Shown: one piece after another, positions 1 through 6,734 of the stretch
How positions within the stretch are numbered: position 1 is the first letter of the stretch
Layout of the letters: each line of letters starts with the position of its first letter
DNA from: Anaerolineales bacterium
Lineage (GTDB): Bacteria > Chloroflexota > Anaerolineae > Anaerolineales > UBA4823
Direction of reading: 5' to 3'
NCBI GenBank assembly: GCA_025057645.1
Contig: JANXBJ010000019.1
Location: 1-43,244, forward strand
DNA length: 43,244 nucleotides
The notes under the pieces: generated by a model
Database searches by the model: none
What the model was told of the DNA's origin: nothing
The model's input: the letters and a program-made list of their open reading frames with translations, nothing else
Program-made: the position numbers and the translations under genes

Positions 1-87
1 CCAACCCAAGAATGTTTGCAACGCCTGAACATCACTTGGGCAGCAGAACATTTGCCGTCCACGAAGCACGGTCCTTAACATCTTACT

Positions 88-299: not shown

Positions 300-1784
300 A
301 TGAAGAAAAAGCTTTCCCGCCGTGAGTTCTTGAAGATCGGTGCCTTAGGAAGCGCTGCCTTGATCGTCTCACATTGCGCCCCGCCCCCCACGCCCACGCA
401 AGTCCCCCAGCCGCCTACTCCGACCACAGCATCGGTTCAAACCGAAGCGCCGCCCGCTCCGGAAACCGCAGCCCCGCCGCCAGCCGCCAGCGATGCTACC
501 TACGAGGAGTGGATTAACACTGTTGCCAGCACTGACCCAATCGAAATTCGCATTGTTCACTGGTTCGACCCGAACAATCCCGCCGAGCACAATCAAGAAT
601 TGATGGACTGGGCGACCGGCGAGTGGAAAAAACGCTATCCCAACGGCAAAATCAACTGGGAGCTAGTCGGTTGGGGTGAGATCGACCAAAAGACGGCTGG
701 TTTCGTGATGGCAAACGAGCCGGTGGACATCACCTACAACTGGGGCGGCGCCACCGAGAACTGGTGCAGCGGCGACTTCGTCCTACCCCTCGATGGACAG
801 ATGCCCAAGTGGTGGGTTGATTCGCGTATCCCTGCCACCCTACAGCCCCCATCAAATGGGCTATGCAGCGATGGACGCTTGGTGATGGCTGCCATGGGCA
901 TGGAAAACCAAGCTGTGATCGTGCGCGCTGATCTATTGGAGGCCGCAGGAGTATCCCAAGACAGCTTAGCCTCCCAAGAGGGATTTGTGGCTGCCATGCA
1001 AGCCTTGAGCAAACAGCCCGGCTTCGAGAAGCCCTACGCCTTCAAGATGGGTGCAGACTGGTCGATGATGGACTCGCTGCTCTTTGCCTGGCGGGGCAAT
1101 GGTCTGACCTTTGGCGATTTCCGCGAAGACGGGTCGGAGAAGGACGCCTGGCTGCAATCGGCTGAGTTCGTCAAGAAGTTGATGGAGCTGACCCCCGAAG
1201 CAGCCCTGAACTGGACCTGGGCAGAGGTCGAACAGGCTTTTGCCACCGGCCAAATCGCTGCTATGGATCACGGCAATTGGTTCTACAGTGTGGGCAAGAC
1301 TCTCGATACTGAAGGTAAGATCGTCAACGAAAAGGTCACTGGGCTTGTGCCTTACCCTTATGGCCCCTCCAGCCCCGAAAAGAAGCCCTTTATTACCTTT
1401 AGCCTGACCGGCTTCTACCTGCTCAAGACCTCGCCGGAGAAGAATCGGCGCGCTGCGATCGACTTGATGGCAATTCTCTCGCAGACCAAAGCGGCATGGA
1501 AGCATCAAGACGGCACCGTGCCCCCGACTACGGGCTGGACAATTGAAGACCGGCTCAAGGAAGCCTACGACCCTTCGATTGCATGGTGGTGGAAGCGCTG
1601 GGAGGAACTAAATAAAACCAGCCGCATCGTGCCCTTAACCGGCTTTCTAGCACGGGATGAGATCACCGGGGCAGCCTATCCGTTGCTAGTTTCGATGTAT
1701 CGCGGCGAGATCACCCCTGAGCAGCTCTACACGCAGATGCGCGAGATCGCTCTGCCGCTGATCGAAGCTGCGAAGAAACCATAA
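300..1784 (+). CDS. Sugar ABC transporter substrate-binding lipoprotein
   Basis: Extracellular solute-binding protein, family 1 type, 494 residues. It captures a sugar or oligosaccharide outside the membrane and delivers it to the two permeases encoded next. The N-terminus has a twin-arginine signal (SRREFLK, residues 6-12), a hydrophobic stretch and Cys26 as probable lipid anchor. The lipobox is atypical, with His at -1 (VSHC). A Pro/Thr/Ala-rich linker (about 27-65) precedes the binding domain, which is rich in Trp and acidic residues. The ATG is preceded by a full AAGGAGG ribosome site. It is the first gene of a seven-gene operon whose later genes (SIS protein, ROK kinase) suggest an amino sugar or similar aldose as substrate; the exact sugar cannot be read from sequence. 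Confidence 0.9.
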   Translation: MKKKLSRREFLKIGALGSAALIVSHCAPPPTPTQVPQPPTPTTASVQTEAPPAPETAAPPPAASDATYEEWINTVASTDPIEIRIVHWFDPNNPAEHNQELMDWATGEWKKRYPNGKINWELVGWGEIDQKTAGFVMANEPVDITYNWGGATENWCSGDFVLPLDGQMPKWWVDSRIPATLQPPSNGLCSDGRLVMAAMGMENQAVIVRADLLEAAGVSQDSLASQEGFVAAMQALSKQPGFEKPYAFKMGADWSMMDSLLFAWRGNGLTFGDFREDGSEKDAWLQSAEFVKKLMELTPEAALNWTWAEVEQAFATGQIAAMDHGNWFYSVGKTLDTEGKIVNEKVTGLVPYPYGPSSPEKKPFITFSLTGFYLLKTSPEKNRRAAIDLMAILSQTKAAWKHQDGTVPPTTGWTIEDRLKEAYDPSIAWWWKRWEELNKTSRIVPLTGFLARDEITGAAYPLLVSMYRGEITPEQLYTQMREIALPLIEAAKKP

Positions 1785-1791
1785 GGCCGTT

Positions 1792-2757
1792 TTGAATCAA
1801 GCCGTACCAATGATCAAGCTGCAAGCGGTCACCCAAGCTGCCGAACACCTCAAAAAGCGAGGCATCTTTTCCAGTCGACTCAAACGAGATGAAATCTTGT
1901 TGGGGTATGCCCTGCTATTACCAAGTTTCCTTTTCATCGGCTTGGTGATCGGCTATCCGTTGGTTCGTTCCGTGCAACTCAGTCTGAACCGCTTTAAGTT
2001 GACTGCCGGGGTTGATTCGGAGCAATTTTGCGGTTTATGTAACTTTCAAAGTCTGCTCCGCGACCCCTTTTTGGACGTCTACTTGCGCAATCAGGCAATT
2101 TGGGTTCTAGGGGCAACTTTTTTGCCGATCCTCTTTGCTCTAGTGCTCGCCCTGCTGATGGACCGCGAGCTGCGCGGGCGGTGGTTTTGGCGGTCGGTGG
2201 TGCTCATCCCGTGGATGATGCCGATTGCCACCACCGCCCTCACCTGGCGTTGGATCTACGACCGCCAGTGGGGGCTGCTCAACTATTACCTCCGTCAATT
2301 GGGAATCATCTCTGAGAATGTAGGTTTTTTGACCGACAAACTTTGGCTTTGGCCCTCCATCTTACTCATGGCAATGTGGATGTGGTTTCCTTATAACTAT
2401 GTGGCCATTCTAGCCGCGTTACAGGCAATCCCTAAAGAGATGCGCGAGGCTGCCCGGGTCGATGGATGCACACCTCTCAAGGAAATTTGGTATATCACCT
2501 TGCCCAGCATCCGTCCGGTGCTTAGCCTCTTAATTGTGCTCGGGTTGATTTGGTCGATGAACGACTTCACGGCAATTTTCCTGCTCACTGAGGGCGGTCC
2601 GGGCATCGACTCGACCACCCTAGCCCCCCTAGTCTATAAAGTCTCTTTTCGCTACTATGACCTAGGCAAAGGCGCAGCGATTGGGATGGTTTTGATGCTC
2701 ATCAGCCTGATTTTCGGGGCAATCTATTTGCAAATGGTCAAGGCGGAGGAAAAATGA
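1792..2757 (+). CDS. Sugar ABC transporter permease (MalF/UgpA type)
   Basis: Integral membrane permease of a carbohydrate ABC importer, about six transmembrane helices. The cytoplasmic EAA loop that docks the ATPase is visible late in the protein (EAARVDGCTPLKEIW then LPSIRP). The longest reading starts with TTG at 1792; an in-frame ATG at 1810 is an alternative, and neither has a convincing ribosome site, so translational coupling to the binding-protein gene (7-base gap) is likely. It ends in an ATGA overlap with the second permease. No ATP-binding subunit is encoded nearby, as is common for this family, where a shared MsmX-like ATPase acts from another locus. Confidence 0.92.
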   Translation: MNQAVPMIKLQAVTQAAEHLKKRGIFSSRLKRDEILLGYALLLPSFLFIGLVIGYPLVRSVQLSLNRFKLTAGVDSEQFCGLCNFQSLLRDPFLDVYLRNQAIWVLGATFLPILFALVLALLMDRELRGRWFWRSVVLIPWMMPIATTALTWRWIYDRQWGLLNYYLRQLGIISENVGFLTDKLWLWPSILLMAMWMWFPYNYVAILAALQAIPKEMREAARVDGCTPLKEIWYITLPSIRPVLSLLIVLGLIWSMNDFTAIFLLTEGGPGIDSTTLAPLVYKVSFRYYDLGKGAAIGMVLMLISLIFGAIYLQMVKAEEK

Positions 2758-3611
2758 GCAACGCGCAGCGATTCCTACGAACGCTTCGGGAACAAATTCC
2801 GGTTTATGCGACCTTGATCGCCTTAACCTTGTTCATTGTCGTTCCTTTCCTGTGGCTCCTAACCTCAACAGTGCGCCCGGTCGCAGAGCTCTATGTTTAC
2901 CCGCCACGCTGGATTCCGCAGACCTTTACACTGGTTGCCTATCAAAAGGCCTTTCAAACTTTTGCGAGGCCATTGGTCAATTCTGCTGGTTACGGCCTGG
3001 TGACCGCCTTATTAACTCTCATAGTCGCTTGTCCGGCCGCCTACAGCCTGACCCGCCTGAACTATCCCGGAAAGCGCAGCGTGACCGGAGTTTTCCTGCT
3101 CACCCAGATGCTCCCCTTTGTCCTTTTGCTTCTCCCGCTGTATATCATCTACCTAAAGCTGGGTCTTTACAACACTCGTTTAGGATTGATCATCGGCTTC
3201 ACTGCGCTGACTGTCCCCTATTCGGTGCTGTTGTTGCGCAGTTTCTTTTCTGGATTACCGATCGAACTCGAGGAACAGGCCATGATCGATGGCTGCACGC
3301 GGCTGGGGGCTTTGTGGCGCATTGTGCTCCCGCTTTCCACACCCGTTTTGGTTGCAGTTGTGCTCAGCAGTATTGTCTTAGTTTGGAATGATGTCTTATT
3401 TACCATTTTCCTCAGCAAAGATTTGGAAGTCCAAACCGCCTCCGTGGCTCTCTATCGCTTCTTCACCGTGCGCTCGGCCTCGGGCGGCGTTGCCCAAAAA
3501 GAGGTGATGCTGGCTGGTGGAGTTATCCTAACCTTACCGGTCATTGTCCTGTTTACCTTCTTGCAGAAATATATTGCCGCGGGGATCACCGCTGGGGCAT
3601 TGAAAGGTTGA
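2754..3611 (+). CDS. Sugar ABC transporter permease (MalG/UgpE type)
   Basis: Second membrane subunit of the same importer, 285 residues with about six membrane helices. The EAA-type motif is EEQAMIDGCTRLGALW followed by IVLPLSTP. The ATG overlaps the stop of the upstream permease by four bases, so the two are translationally coupled and should be made in equal amounts. Together with the binding protein they make a CUT1-type carbohydrate importer lacking only its ATPase. Confidence 0.92.
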   Translation: MSNAQRFLRTLREQIPVYATLIALTLFIVVPFLWLLTSTVRPVAELYVYPPRWIPQTFTLVAYQKAFQTFARPLVNSAGYGLVTALLTLIVACPAAYSLTRLNYPGKRSVTGVFLLTQMLPFVLLLLPLYIIYLKLGLYNTRLGLIIGFTALTVPYSVLLLRSFFSGLPIELEEQAMIDGCTRLGALWRIVLPLSTPVLVAVVLSSIVLVWNDVLFTIFLSKDLEVQTASVALYRFFTVRSASGGVAQKEVMLAGGVILTLPVIVLFTFLQKYIAAGITAGALKG

Positions 3612-3674: not shown

Positions 3675-4508
3675 ATGTACCGAGAATGGTTTGTCACCGA
3701 ATATTTCTCCCAATACGATGAGTTTGAAGATTGGGCAAAAGGGGGCAAAACGCGCAGCATCAACGTCTACGACAAGTGGATGCTGATTGTCAACCTCAAC
3801 CCAAGCCAAGAGGCTGAAGTAACACTCACGTTTTATTACATGGATGAACCGTCCAAGGACTTCACCTTTCGCCTCGCAGCCGGAAGACAAGGGCGATTGC
3901 ACTTCTCAGATGAGCCCGACAATCTTGGCACCATCAACCTGCCACCCGGGTGCGACCCGCGCAAGCGCTTTGGCGTGCGCGTGCGCAGCACCCAACCAGT
4001 GGTCGTCCAGGCTACGGCAGGCGACCGCATCGGTGAAGAGCGCATCACCAATAGCATGGCGACTTATCTATACCACCCCGGACCCTTGGGGGAAGCAGAG
4101 AAAACTTGGATGTATGTGGATTGTGTCTACCTGACTTCCGATCGCTTCCCCTTAGAGGAGCGAGAATGGCTCTCGGTGCTCAATCCCAACCCACAAACTG
4201 CGCATTGCACGGTGACTTTCATCCCCGGCGGAGATGTGGATGTCGGCACACAGGCTTCCAAGCCCATCGAAGCCTCTATTGCGAAGGTACAGCACACCTT
4301 TGAAGTTCCGGCCGAACGCCTGTTTTCGACCCTAATCTCAGATTGGCAAGATGTGCTCCCCAATCAGCCCTATGCCGTGCGCGTGGATAGCGACCAGCCC
4401 ATCACTCTGCAAGGCATCCGTCACATCTTCGAGCGCGGCAAGTATGAGTTTTCACGTTGTTGGGCGGTCCTCGATGCCATTCCCATTCCACCAGAAGTGC
4501 GGGGGTAG
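3675..4508 (+). CDS. Double ASRT-type (sensory rhodopsin transducer-like) domain protein
   Basis: Soluble protein of 277 residues with no signal peptide. Residues about 20-130 resemble the Anabaena sensory rhodopsin transducer family (PF07100): a strand ending in ILVNLN-type residues, TLTFYYMDEP, a basic turn before HFSDEPD, then a VVVQAT-type strand. Residues about 140-270 look like a second, diverged copy (WLSVLNPNPQTAHCTVTF, later QPITLQGIRHIFERGKY). Family work predicted these beta-sandwich domains to bind small molecules such as sugars. No rhodopsin gene is near. Position between the importer and the SIS/ROK genes suggests intracellular sugar binding or an epimerase/isomerase-like role, which is inference. 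AAGGAG lies 7 bases before the ATG. Confidence 0.65.
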   Translation: MYREWFVTEYFSQYDEFEDWAKGGKTRSINVYDKWMLIVNLNPSQEAEVTLTFYYMDEPSKDFTFRLAAGRQGRLHFSDEPDNLGTINLPPGCDPRKRFGVRVRSTQPVVVQATAGDRIGEERITNSMATYLYHPGPLGEAEKTWMYVDCVYLTSDRFPLEEREWLSVLNPNPQTAHCTVTFIPGGDVDVGTQASKPIEASIAKVQHTFEVPAERLFSTLISDWQDVLPNQPYAVRVDSDQPITLQGIRHIFERGKYEFSRCWAVLDAIPIPPEVRG

Positions 4509-4519
4509 AAAGGAGAGCT

Positions 4520-5260
4520 ATGGAGAAATCGATCATCGCCCAATATTTTGCGAGGGTTTACGAATCGCTCCAACAAGCTGAACAGAGTCAGTCCGAAAAC
4601 GTGTACAAGGCAGCCCAACTGACGGCGCAGCGTCTGATTGCGGGGAATATTCTGCACGTCTTTGGCACCGGACACAGCCATATCCTCGCCGAGGAGATTT
4701 TCTTCCGCGCCGGCGGCTTGGTGCAAGTGAACGCCATTCTAGACCCCGCCCTGATGCTGCACCTCAGCGCTTCGAAAAGCACCGACCTCGAACGCCTGCA
4801 AAACTACGCCCGCATTGTGCTGGAGCGCTATGATCTCCAGGAAGGAGATGTTTTGCTTGTCGTTTCTAATTCGGGTCGCAATGCAGTACCTATCGAGGCT
4901 GCCCTCTACGGCAAAGAGCACGGCTTGCACGTCATCGCCATGACCTCGGCTGCCGCCTACGCAGCCTTGCCCTCCCGCCACCCTTCGGGAAAGAAGCTCG
5001 CCGATGTAGCTGACATCGTCATCGACACCTGCGTTCCCGAAGGGGATGCTTCGCTGAGCTTGCCAGGCCTAGAGCAACGCTTTGGTCCGCTCTCCACCAT
5101 CCTCGGCGCAACGCTCATCCAAGCTTTGGTCTGTGCAACCATCGAAGAAATGCTCAGGCATCAAGTGCAGCCGAAGGTGCTGATCAGTGCCAATGTGGAC
5201 AGCGGTCAAGATCATGCTGCCCTATTCCAAGAGTACAGGCGACGCATTCGCCATTTTTAG
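4520..5260 (+). CDS. SIS-domain phosphosugar-binding protein (UPF0309-like)
   Basis: About 246 residues, single SIS (sugar isomerase) domain. Visible hallmarks are HVFGTGHSHILAEE (about residues 46-59), a motif also seen in UPF0309 proteins, and VVSNSGRNAVPIE, the phosphosugar-binding Ser loop. The family binds or isomerises sugar phosphates, often in amino-sugar or N-acetyl-sugar operons. The start is placed at 4520 because AGGAGAG sits just upstream and the family begins at this point; a longer frame opens at 4457 but would overlap the preceding gene. The following ROK kinase begins 9 bases after its stop. Confidence 0.85.
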   Translation: MEKSIIAQYFARVYESLQQAEQSQSENVYKAAQLTAQRLIAGNILHVFGTGHSHILAEEIFFRAGGLVQVNAILDPALMLHLSASKSTDLERLQNYARIVLERYDLQEGDVLLVVSNSGRNAVPIEAALYGKEHGLHVIAMTSAAAYAALPSRHPSGKKLADVADIVIDTCVPEGDASLSLPGLEQRFGPLSTILGATLIQALVCATIEEMLRHQVQPKVLISANVDSGQDHAALFQEYRRRIRHF

Positions 5261-5269
5261 CGAGAGTGC

Positions 5270-6259
5270 ATGAGAGACGAGAGGATCGCTCTCTGCGCAA
5301 TTGGTTTGGATTTGGGGGGCTCAGGGTTAAAGGGAGGCATTGTTGATGGGGCGGGGAAACTGCTCAAGGTAAAGCAGGTTCCTAGCCCGGTGCATTCCCA
5401 CCCTGAGCAAATTGCCGATGCGCTCGTCACTCTCCTGCAAGCCCTAGCCGAAGAGGCGAACCGGGAGGGTTGGCAAGTGGTCGGCGCCGGAGTCTCCTCG
5501 ACGTTGGACGTCGATCCTCAGACAGGTTGCTTTCTGCCGCCCCACTTTGATCATTTACAGCGCTGGCAAGGCTACCCGATCGCCCAATACCTTGAAAGTG
5601 CGCTTAGCTTGCCCGTTTTGGTCGAAAACGACGGCCCGATGTGCGCGTGGGGCGAATATCTGGTCGGGGCGGGCAAGGGGTATGACAGCTTGGTGATGGT
5701 CACGCTGGGCAGCGGGGTTGGAGGAGGCGTCGTCTTGGAAGGCAAACGCCTACCCAACACACTTGGACGGGCAGCCTATTTTGGACATCTGTGCATCGAT
5801 CTAGATGGCTTGATATGTCCCTGCGGGCGCCGGGGTTGTTGGGAGATGTACGTTTCGGCGACGGCTTTAGAGCGACGCGCGGCGGAAGTGGTGGAGTCGG
5901 AGGCGCGTCCGACCCATTTGGGCAAGCAGCCCACAGCCCAGCAAGTCGTTGCGGCAGCCCAAGATGGTGATGCACTAGCGACTGAGCTTCTTAACGAGCT
6001 TGCTGGCTACCTCGCCGTTGGTCTAATAGACTTAGCCAATCTCTTTGCTCCGCCGCTCCTCGTCATCGGCGGCGGGCTATCCCGAGCTGGGGAACTGCTT
6101 TTAGCGCCCGCCAGGCAGCAGATGAACGCCCTTCGTCTCCCCATCTGTTCGGAAATCGCTTTGGTTGCTTCTCAATTGCCTTTTGAAGCTGGCTTAATGG
6201 GCGCAGCTTTGTTAGCTTTGGAACGCTTTGGAGGTGTCTATGTGCGCAACCCCAACTGA
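5270..6259 (+). CDS. ROK-family sugar kinase
   Basis: 329-residue ROK kinase, phosphorylating a hexose or N-acyl hexosamine with ATP. Seen: phosphate-1 motif IGLDLGGSGLKGG near the N-terminus, the catalytic Asp in VENDGP, the glycine-rich GSGVGGGV, and the zinc-binding CPCGRRGCWE that defines the family, preceded by GHLCIDLDG. Together with the importer and SIS protein it gives an uptake, phosphorylation and isomerisation route. Specificity (glucose, N-acetylglucosamine or N-acetylmannosamine) is not decided by sequence. It overlaps the next gene by 20 bases. Confidence 0.9.
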   Translation: MRDERIALCAIGLDLGGSGLKGGIVDGAGKLLKVKQVPSPVHSHPEQIADALVTLLQALAEEANREGWQVVGAGVSSTLDVDPQTGCFLPPHFDHLQRWQGYPIAQYLESALSLPVLVENDGPMCAWGEYLVGAGKGYDSLVMVTLGSGVGGGVVLEGKRLPNTLGRAAYFGHLCIDLDGLICPCGRRGCWEMYVSATALERRAAEVVESEARPTHLGKQPTAQQVVAAAQDGDALATELLNELAGYLAVGLIDLANLFAPPLLVIGGGLSRAGELLLAPARQQMNALRLPICSEIALVASQLPFEAGLMGAALLALERFGGVYVRNPN

Positions 6260-6734
6260 GAGTCAGCCTTGTCTACCCATCAAGGGCCCGTTTACGCCCG
6301 AAAAACTGCGCAACTTCCTTGCACAGCCGCTGATCGCTCGCTTTGCCACGGTCACCCCGCAGGGCAAACCGCACGTTGTGCCGGTATGGTACGATTGGGA
6401 TGGTCGGTACTTATGGGTGACCATCGACCGTCGCTCGCAGAAGTATCGCAACATGGTTGCCAACCCCTACTGCGCAGTGACCATCGATGAGACTTGGGGC
6501 GGTTTGCGCTTCATCGGGGCGATCTTCGAGGGCTCTGTCGAATTGATCGACCAGCCCGAAGATTGGGCGCGAGAGTTTGTGCGCAAGGTGTATACCCGGT
6601 ATATGGGCGAGGAGGGTCTGTGCGCGCCGACCATCCAGCGCATGATCAATGAAGGGCAACACGTTGTGGTTAAGATCTCCCCCGAGAAGATCCTCACCTG
6701 GGACGACACGTCCGGACCGGCGCCGGTAGGCTAG
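6240..6734 (+). CDS. Pyridoxamine 5'-phosphate oxidase-like FMN/F420 protein
   Basis: About 164 residues, split-barrel flavin-binding fold of the PPOX class. The N-terminal part has IARFATVTPQGKPHVVPVW, the usual first strands of the family, then YLWVTIDRRSQKYRNMVANP, where phosphate/flavin contacts normally fall. The start at 6240 is chosen because GGAGGT lies 4 bases upstream; a frame opening at 6228 lacks this. Its place at the end of the sugar operon, overlapping the ROK gene by 20 bases, suggests co-transcription, but a role in sugar use is not obvious. It could be F420- or FMN-dependent. Confidence 0.85.
   Translation: MCATPTESQPCLPIKGPFTPEKLRNFLAQPLIARFATVTPQGKPHVVPVWYDWDGRYLWVTIDRRSQKYRNMVANPYCAVTIDETWGGLRFIGAIFEGSVELIDQPEDWAREFVRKVYTRYMGEEGLCAPTIQRMINEGQHVVVKISPEKILTWDDTSGPAPVG

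Follow-up and report, generated by a model that had tools for sequence, protein, structure and literature searches.

Results

A double-ASRT gene within a sugar-import operon

The stretch of DNA analysed here (the window, 43,244 nucleotides) is an entire contig (C10) of G000, a 3.1-Mb Anaerolineales assembly of 63 contigs. Near its start lies a run of closely spaced plus-strand genes (Table 1), one of which encodes a 277-amino acid protein consisting of two ASRT-type domains, referred to below as the dyad. Its open reading frame begins with ATG and has no internal stop; the matching minus-strand frame is interrupted by stops. From the solute-binding gene to the PPOX gene, successive genes are separated by 7 bases, a 4-base overlap, 63, 11 and 9 bases and a further overlap. 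The SIS start was taken at the ATG at 4520, 11 bases past the dyad stop; the table of open reading frames opens this gene at a TTG at 4457. No importer ATPase gene is present in the run. Pfam and NCBIfam searches of the neighbouring genes confirm that the dyad gene is situated between a CUT1 importer upstream and SIS and ROK genes downstream, as an initial sequence-only reading of the window had placed it.

The window opens inside the operon, its first 75 bases being the end of a gene for an aldehyde ferredoxin oxidoreductase (AFOR), which the three importer genes separate from the dyad. Most of the remainder of this gene is located at one end of another contig of the same assembly (G000:C7:8-1783, minus strand), with 93% identity over residues 1-592 of 635. 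Because the window begins within the operon, both the AFOR and a further gene of the MR_MLE family, described below for related genomes, were missing from the sequence-only reading. Promoter and terminator scans were uninformative as to the limits of the operon, since the counts were below the shuffled mean (3 versus 3.3 and 6 versus 8.4, respectively). Between the AFOR end and the solute-binding gene, positions 88-162 contain two 35-base direct repeat units that also form a 22-base inverted repeat (95% complementary) and look like a REP-type palindromic element.

Table 1. Features of the operon and of the dyad protein, with window coordinates
Feature	Position	Strand	Evidence
Aldehyde ferredoxin oxidoreductase (AFOR): last 25 codons (1-75), stop codon (76-78)	1..78	+	Frame 1 reads like the AFOR C-terminus of sibling genomes
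CUT1-type extracellular solute-binding protein	300..1784	+	PF01547 E 6.7e-15; Tat-signal match below its cut-off
ABC permease 1	1792..2757	+	PF00528 E 1.6e-21
ABC permease 2	2754..3611	+	PF00528 E 3e-17
Double-ASRT protein (dyad), 277 aa	3675..4508	+	PF07100 42.5 bits, two stretches
ASRT domain 1, ~residues 1-136, diverged	3675..4082	+	hhalign E 1.6e-9; 1NC7 Z 10.1
ASRT domain 2, ~residues 137-277	4083..4505	+	hhalign E 3.1e-10; 1NC7 E 4.0e-4
SIS-domain sugar isomerase-like protein	4520..5260	+	PF13580 E 1.3e-47; NF002805 298 bits over 135
ROK-family sugar kinase	5270..6259	+	PF00480 E 1.3e-54
F420-type PPOX oxidoreductase, overlaps ROK gene	6240..6734	+	PF01243; TIGR03618 80.2 bits over 79.05

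Both halves of the protein resemble ASRT

PF07100 (ASRT) is the sole Pfam family detected in the dyad at E<=1 (E 7.6e-11, gathering score 25), and no NCBIfam model matches at E<=0.1. Comparison with PDB sequences by phmmer returned 1NC7 alone at a non-significant E of 1.7, and therefore profile and fold methods were used. Each domain, aligned over six relatives, was compared by hhalign with a profile of solo ASRTs (17 rows, 16 distinct) and matched it with the E-values given in Table 1; the two domains also match each other (E 4.3e-7). The solo reference set is sound, because its profile recovers both Anabaena ASRT (2II7, E 6.5e-57) and Thermotoga TM1070 (1NC7, E 2.2e-29).

An AlphaFold2 model of the whole dyad, built from six relatives, is of low confidence (mean pLDDT 56.7, pTM 0.62), as is a model of domain 2 alone (pLDDT 61.4). 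Foldseek nevertheless placed 1NC7 at the top for the whole low-confidence model (E 2.3e-4, prob 1.00, TMt 0.73), and VIA located this match to domain 1 (model residues 2-137), with a best unrelated row of Z 6.0. For the domain 2 model searched alone, 1NC7 was again the top match (prob 1.00, TMt 0.64). A 1NC7-like beta-sandwich is therefore found in both halves, as judged on low-confidence models and from fold-search ranking rather than strand count, and the suggestion of a tandem ASRT-type protein stands: the outcome that would have spoken against it, absence of the fold, did not occur. Arrestins also appeared in the Foldseek list (prob 0.14-0.60, TM <0.2) and were put down to general beta-sandwich resemblance. 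By hydropathy, the dyad has no hydrophobic segment suggestive of a signal peptide or membrane span (highest 19-residue value 0.45), and the 277-residue chain carries no amidase domain, PF07100 being the only Pfam match.

The two halves retain different residues

The conserved tryptophan of strand 1 and asparagine at the end of strand 2 of ASRT are present in both domains (W5 and N40 in domain 1, W145 and N170 in domain 2). Alignment of nine dyads from four genera, seven of them from outside the genus of the window, revealed invariant positions that include N40, D149, E164, N170, R215 and R249. Domain 2 keeps a set of one glutamate, one asparagine and two arginines in all nine (in the window, E164, N170, R215 and R249, along with W145), whereas domain 1 keeps only the turn asparagine of this set, again in 9/9, and lacks the glutamate of the SHE motif. 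The dyad is unequal in this sense, and it looks like one half resembles the ancestral site while the other has drifted.

The retained residues have counterparts in the solo proteins: E164 aligns with the glutamate of SHE, R215 with the arginine of the ARRT stretch and R249 with the arginine that follows Q-x-x. Glutamate or aspartate occupies the SHE position in 15/15 solo rows of the residue alignment (the 17 rows less a duplicate of L038 and one row from L036), and both arginines are invariant in all 17. These glutamate and arginine residues would line the cleft of domain 2. The SHE histidine is variable even among solo ASRTs, being R, Y, R and N in four of 15 rows. The complete SHEshChhN signature is absent from the dyad, the corresponding stretches reading YDKWMLIVN in domain 1 and EREWLSVLN in domain 2. 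In 1NC7 the dimer partner supplies part of the cleft wall, and 1,2-ethanediol sits in the cleft near H25 and C29 (PMC2739507). At the pocket histidine the dyad has D33 or R163, and at the pocket cysteine L37 or S167; given these replacements, its ligand should differ from that of solo ASRTs.

The DNA-contact residues of Anabaena ASRT (R109, Q110 and N113, or RQxxN) were placed by alignment in the RQAEN stretch of solo ASRTs, and this stretch is absent from both dyad halves.

Relation to known ASRT proteins

The ASRT-like solo family comprises Anabaena ASRT (2II7), Thermotoga TM1070 (1NC7) and PF07100, formerly DUF1362. The dyad shares with it the fold, the conserved tryptophan, the turn asparagine, the SHE glutamate (in domain 2), sugar-gene surroundings and a cytoplasmic location. 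It differs in having two fused and unequal domains and in missing the signature histidine and cysteine as well as the DNA-contact residues. Because the SHEshChhN signature fails, we file the dyad, on residue evidence, as a variant of the ASRAH superfamily outside the His/Cys ASRT-like family. Secreted ASRAH dyads of actinobacteria and amidase-fused tetrads of Chloroflexota have been described (PMC2739507); they too have more than one ASRAH domain per chain, but the dyad of the window has no signal peptide, lipobox or amidase and sits in a metabolic operon. Neither AFOR nor cytoplasmic dyads are mentioned in the main text of that paper, and our literature search returned one paper naming DUF1362 and none naming PF07100.

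Dyads are rare and patchily distributed

PF07100 has a single match in G000. Among 400 genomes drawn from the phylum, 13 have a match, which exceeds the cut-off in 12. The dyad occurs in all six genomes of the genus and in 0/95 other relatives searched. A search of the phylum with a dyad profile gave matches in 68/400 genomes: four over both halves (G000, G300, G328 and G330), eight to solo ASRTs, and 56 to part of the profile only, in frames of at least 462 amino acids except for one of 249. These last 56 putatively correspond to the repeat-type secreted proteins of PMC2739507. Searches around G509, G300 and G330 (E<=1e-12) yielded no new dyad genome, the matches (1/3, 2/29 and 1/26) all being already known. 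No plasmid match was obtained by tblastn with the dyad, and the 38 pattern matches in viral contigs included no relative of it.

Dyad loci in sibling and distant genomes

Three siblings (G401, G403 and G404) show the gene order beyond the contig end, as established by Pfam searches of the G403 genes and blastp of all ten genes in the three genomes: a GntR-UTRA regulator in divergent orientation, followed by the genes for MR_MLE, AFOR, the solute-binding protein, both permeases, the dyad, SIS, ROK and PPOX. The MR_MLE protein exceeds the NCBIfam cut-off for galactonate dehydratase (324.4 versus 311 bits). The sibling AFOR (L027:2617-4524) carries both AFOR Pfam domains (PF02730 E 1.9e-74, PF01314 E 2.8e-123), and its best solved relative by sequence is 1AOR (E 2.2e-126). 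The dyad is 91-98% identical in four siblings and its position is kept; the G400 contig carries only permeases, dyad and SIS. PPOX stays beside ROK in three siblings (82-85% identity), and ASRT genes of unrelated genomes repeatedly have proteins of the PPOX or pyridoxamine-phosphate-oxidase type encoded nearby (window 6240-6734, L033:9902-10360, L063, L067). The first permease of G403 (L027:6110-7069) is split into two frames, perhaps through assembly error or a real lesion.

More diverged loci have different surroundings. G402, with a dyad 67% identical, has a partial solute-binding gene, two permeases and the dyad. Facing them in convergent orientation are a BadF-type kinase (NagK-like, but far under the cut-off of that model) and an AFOR truncated by the contig edge; this AFOR is on the opposite strand from the dyad. 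G509, from another family of the class, contains three dyads. Upstream of dyad a (64% identical) are genes for a permease, a ROK kinase and a GH38-type glycosidase, and a gene of the phosphotriesterase family lies downstream; the permease is 29.5% identical to the second permease of the window, and the genes grouped with it putatively include a solute-binding protein, identified by eye. Dyad b (32%) ends 7 or 16 bases, depending on start choice, before an AFOR with 62.5% identity to its G403 counterpart; a GH4 gene lies further on, and the contig has no relative of the importer of the window, as judged also from Pfam searches of five of its genes. The neighbours of dyad c (28%) are of the GH4, URO-D and DegT types. 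Two proteins encoded near the G509 dyads (L054:4596-6245, 549 amino acids; L055:9626-11371, 581 amino acids) have no Pfam match at E 0.01.

G330 encodes a longer chain of ASRT repeats with CUT1 importer genes, two MR_MLE genes within 4 kb (44.5% and 32% identical to that of the sibling), a PPOX relative (49.6%) and an SDR gene. G300 has two adjacent dyads with AraC-type, GNAT and TPR neighbours, and G328 two dyads with AraC-type and histidine-kinase neighbours. Overall, the other outcome that would have spoken against the sequence-only reading, neighbourhoods elsewhere unrelated to sugars, did not occur, but no sugar gene is among the few neighbours scanned in G300 and G328.

The sequence-only reading had stressed the position of the dyad beside SIS and ROK enzymes. 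The case for these two as meaningful partners is weak: relatives of both are missing from the G402 (5.6 kb) and G509b (9.7 kb) contigs, which do carry AFOR, and the G509a contig has ROK but no SIS. AFOR is not universal either, there being no relative in G330 (17 kb), on the G509a contig (9 kb) or among the scanned neighbours of dyads in G509c, G300 and G328.

The pairing with AFOR recurs in two lineages

AFOR homologues (E<=1e-150) are found in 221/396 genomes of the class. A lone AFOR-dyad adjacency would mean little given this abundance, and the pairing therefore rests on its occurrence in two lineages. Among these genomes, the AFOR beside G509 dyad b is closer to that of the siblings than any other from outside the genus (63%, with 58-59% for the next matches). 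A tree of 49 AFOR rows unites it with the six AFORs of the genus in one clade (support 100/98). We examined 29 AFOR loci outside the genus (L113-L141, those listed with DNA from matches in 220 other genomes) up to 1.5 kb on each side, some being cut by contig ends. A dyad was present at one, the locus with the AFOR nearest to that of the window; an MR_MLE relative was present at one of the 29, and none had a relative of SIS, ROK, the second permease or the solute-binding protein.

Within G509, the nearer dyad a is without AFOR and the distant dyad b lies beside it, so that the pairing was not simply carried along with one dyad lineage. That a distant paralogue, rather than the nearest dyad, is adjacent to AFOR speaks for a functional pairing that has been kept; a shared AFOR and dyad ancestor followed by unequal drift is a possible alternative account. 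Like the tungsten AFOR family, the neighbouring enzyme has both AFOR domains, but its clade is distinguished by ties to a sugar importer, a sugar-acid dehydratase and an ASRT dyad. Seven AFOR matches occur in G000 (3.1 Mb; for example on G000:C22, C11, C61 and C63) and 8-10 in each sibling, a sizeable group of probable tungsten enzymes. According to a 2026 survey of tungsten oxidoreductases, only 5/92 clades hold a member of defined physiological role (PMC13328260), and a term search of its text found neither 'sugar' nor 'rhodopsin'. A literature search found no paper that pairs AFOR with 'sensory rhodopsin transducer'.

Solo ASRT genes lie near sugar-oxidation genes

Eight plasmid loci with solo ASRT genes were selected, one per genus, from 79 records of 10 genera (Caballeronia and Nitrobacter were left out). 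Six have MR_MLE, lactone-oxidase (ALO) or GMC/gluconate-dehydrogenase genes within five genes (Deinococcus, Natrononativus, Klebsiella, Sinorhizobium, Croceicoccus and Natrialba), and the Methylomagnum and Sphingobium loci have none of these within that distance. Annotation alone gives 5/8, the Sinorhizobium ALO, annotated as an FAD-binding protein, having been found by Pfam. In control stretches of 40 kb, one from each of four of the eight records, such a gene (one MR_MLE, by annotation only) lies no more than five genes away from 11/153 gene positions; a gluconolactonase-type gene there falls outside the set. The contrast is indicative only, because the loci had already been inspected when the gene classes were set.

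Eleven Chloroflexota solo loci were examined, with one to four neighbours scanned at each: three have MR_MLE or ALO neighbours, three have sugar-type ABC or binding-protein genes, two are next to other genes of oxidoreductase or isomerase-like type (an SDR at one; a xylose-isomerase-like barrel and an FAD oxidoreductase at the other), and the scanned neighbours at the other three include none of these types. An ASRT-ALO-ASRT arrangement is found both in the archaeon Natrononativus (L061:7004-9035) and in the alphaproteobacterium Sinorhizobium (L065:6971-9116). An ALO between two ASRT genes is a possible unfused counterpart of the dyad.

Discussion

A role in sugar handling or sensing had been suggested for the dyad from the absence of a rhodopsin and from its gene context. 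The gene context supports such a role. The idea itself is not new: De Souza, Iyer and Aravind predicted sugar binding for the ASRAH superfamily in 2009, and described sugar operons with solo ASRT genes, some of them alongside dehydratase or pyruvate-oxidase genes (PMC2739507). As to rhodopsin, a PF01036 search matched 0/6 genomes of the genus, but control genomes were equally silent and the argument is not strong. ASRT relatives occur in many genomes without rhodopsin (PMC2739507, PMC3198991), and the pairing with rhodopsin has been argued to be special to Anabaena (PMC3198991). The literature that we found shows no molecular function for ASRT relatives without rhodopsin. New here are the dyad itself, cytoplasmic and with unequal halves, and the repeated occurrence of AFOR and sugar-acid dehydratase genes near it.

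Tentatively, and with somewhat less than even confidence, we favour the dyad being a cytoplasmic accessory that binds a sugar or sugar acid in a pathway of sugar import and ferredoxin-linked oxidation. A sugar would be imported by the CUT1 importer; AFOR would oxidise its aldehyde carbon to give an aldonic acid, which the MR_MLE enzyme would dehydrate, and SIS and ROK may serve a phosphorylated side route. The dyad would hold the free sugar or its acid in the domain 2 cleft (E164, R215, R249), with domain 1 as the facing wall, and once loaded would hand the ligand to AFOR or tune that enzyme.

The nearest competitor is a sugar sensor acting on its own, as envisaged by De Souza and colleagues, which would bind the imported sugar and modulate importer or kinase by contact, AFOR being incidental. 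Such a role was proposed for the solo forms (PMC2739507), and importer genes are common to most dyad settings (the genus operon, G402, G509a with one permease, and G330). We nonetheless consider it unlikely, as the G509b contig has AFOR without any importer relative and a GntR-UTRA regulator is already stationed at the operon in three siblings.

Alternatively, the dyad could itself be an enzyme, for example a ring-opening mutarotase or a lactonase, that feeds AFOR its aldehyde or clears its product. Solo ASRTs do lie beside sugar oxidases and dehydrogenases in archaea, proteobacteria and Chloroflexota, as at the ASRT-ALO-ASRT loci; no mutarotase family is among the Pfam matches of the scanned neighbour proteins, and the conserved glutamate and two arginines could perform acid-base work. 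Three points make this rather improbable: the dyad lacks the His/Cys pair found in the solo pocket, we know of no enzyme with the ASRT fold, and G509a has a separate neighbour of the phosphotriesterase family, a family that contains lactonases.

A DNA-binding regulator has a precedent in Anabaena ASRT, which binds and loops DNA through R109, Q110 and N113 and alters reporter expression (PMC8660804), but with RQAEN kept in neither dyad half and a conventional GntR regulator present, it is very unlikely. A passenger gene without direct link to the pathway, for which the patchy distribution (6/6 genus genomes, 0/95 other relatives) could be cited, is scarcely credible in view of the 91-98% identity and kept position in four siblings, the 67% identity in G402 and the residues invariant across nine dyads of four genera.

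The accessory reading can be extended into a broader and more speculative proposal, to which we give a low probability. ASRT-family proteins may be partners of sugar oxidation at C1, with separate paralogues flanking ALO and a fused, unequal dyad serving AFOR. The dyad would then serve specifically to assist a new clade of sugar-oxidising AFORs, by presenting the open-chain aldose or removing the lactone or acid, and the light-signalling role in Anabaena would have been recruited late from an accessory of sugar oxidation.

ASRT is best known from Anabaena, where it presumably carries the signal of sensory rhodopsin. The pairing with one AFOR clade, together with the one-sided retention of residues, turns the notion that these proteins bind sugars somehow into a concrete question about two proteins. 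It also provides a candidate sugar-acid role for this clade, in an enzyme family in which few clades have a defined role (PMC13328260).
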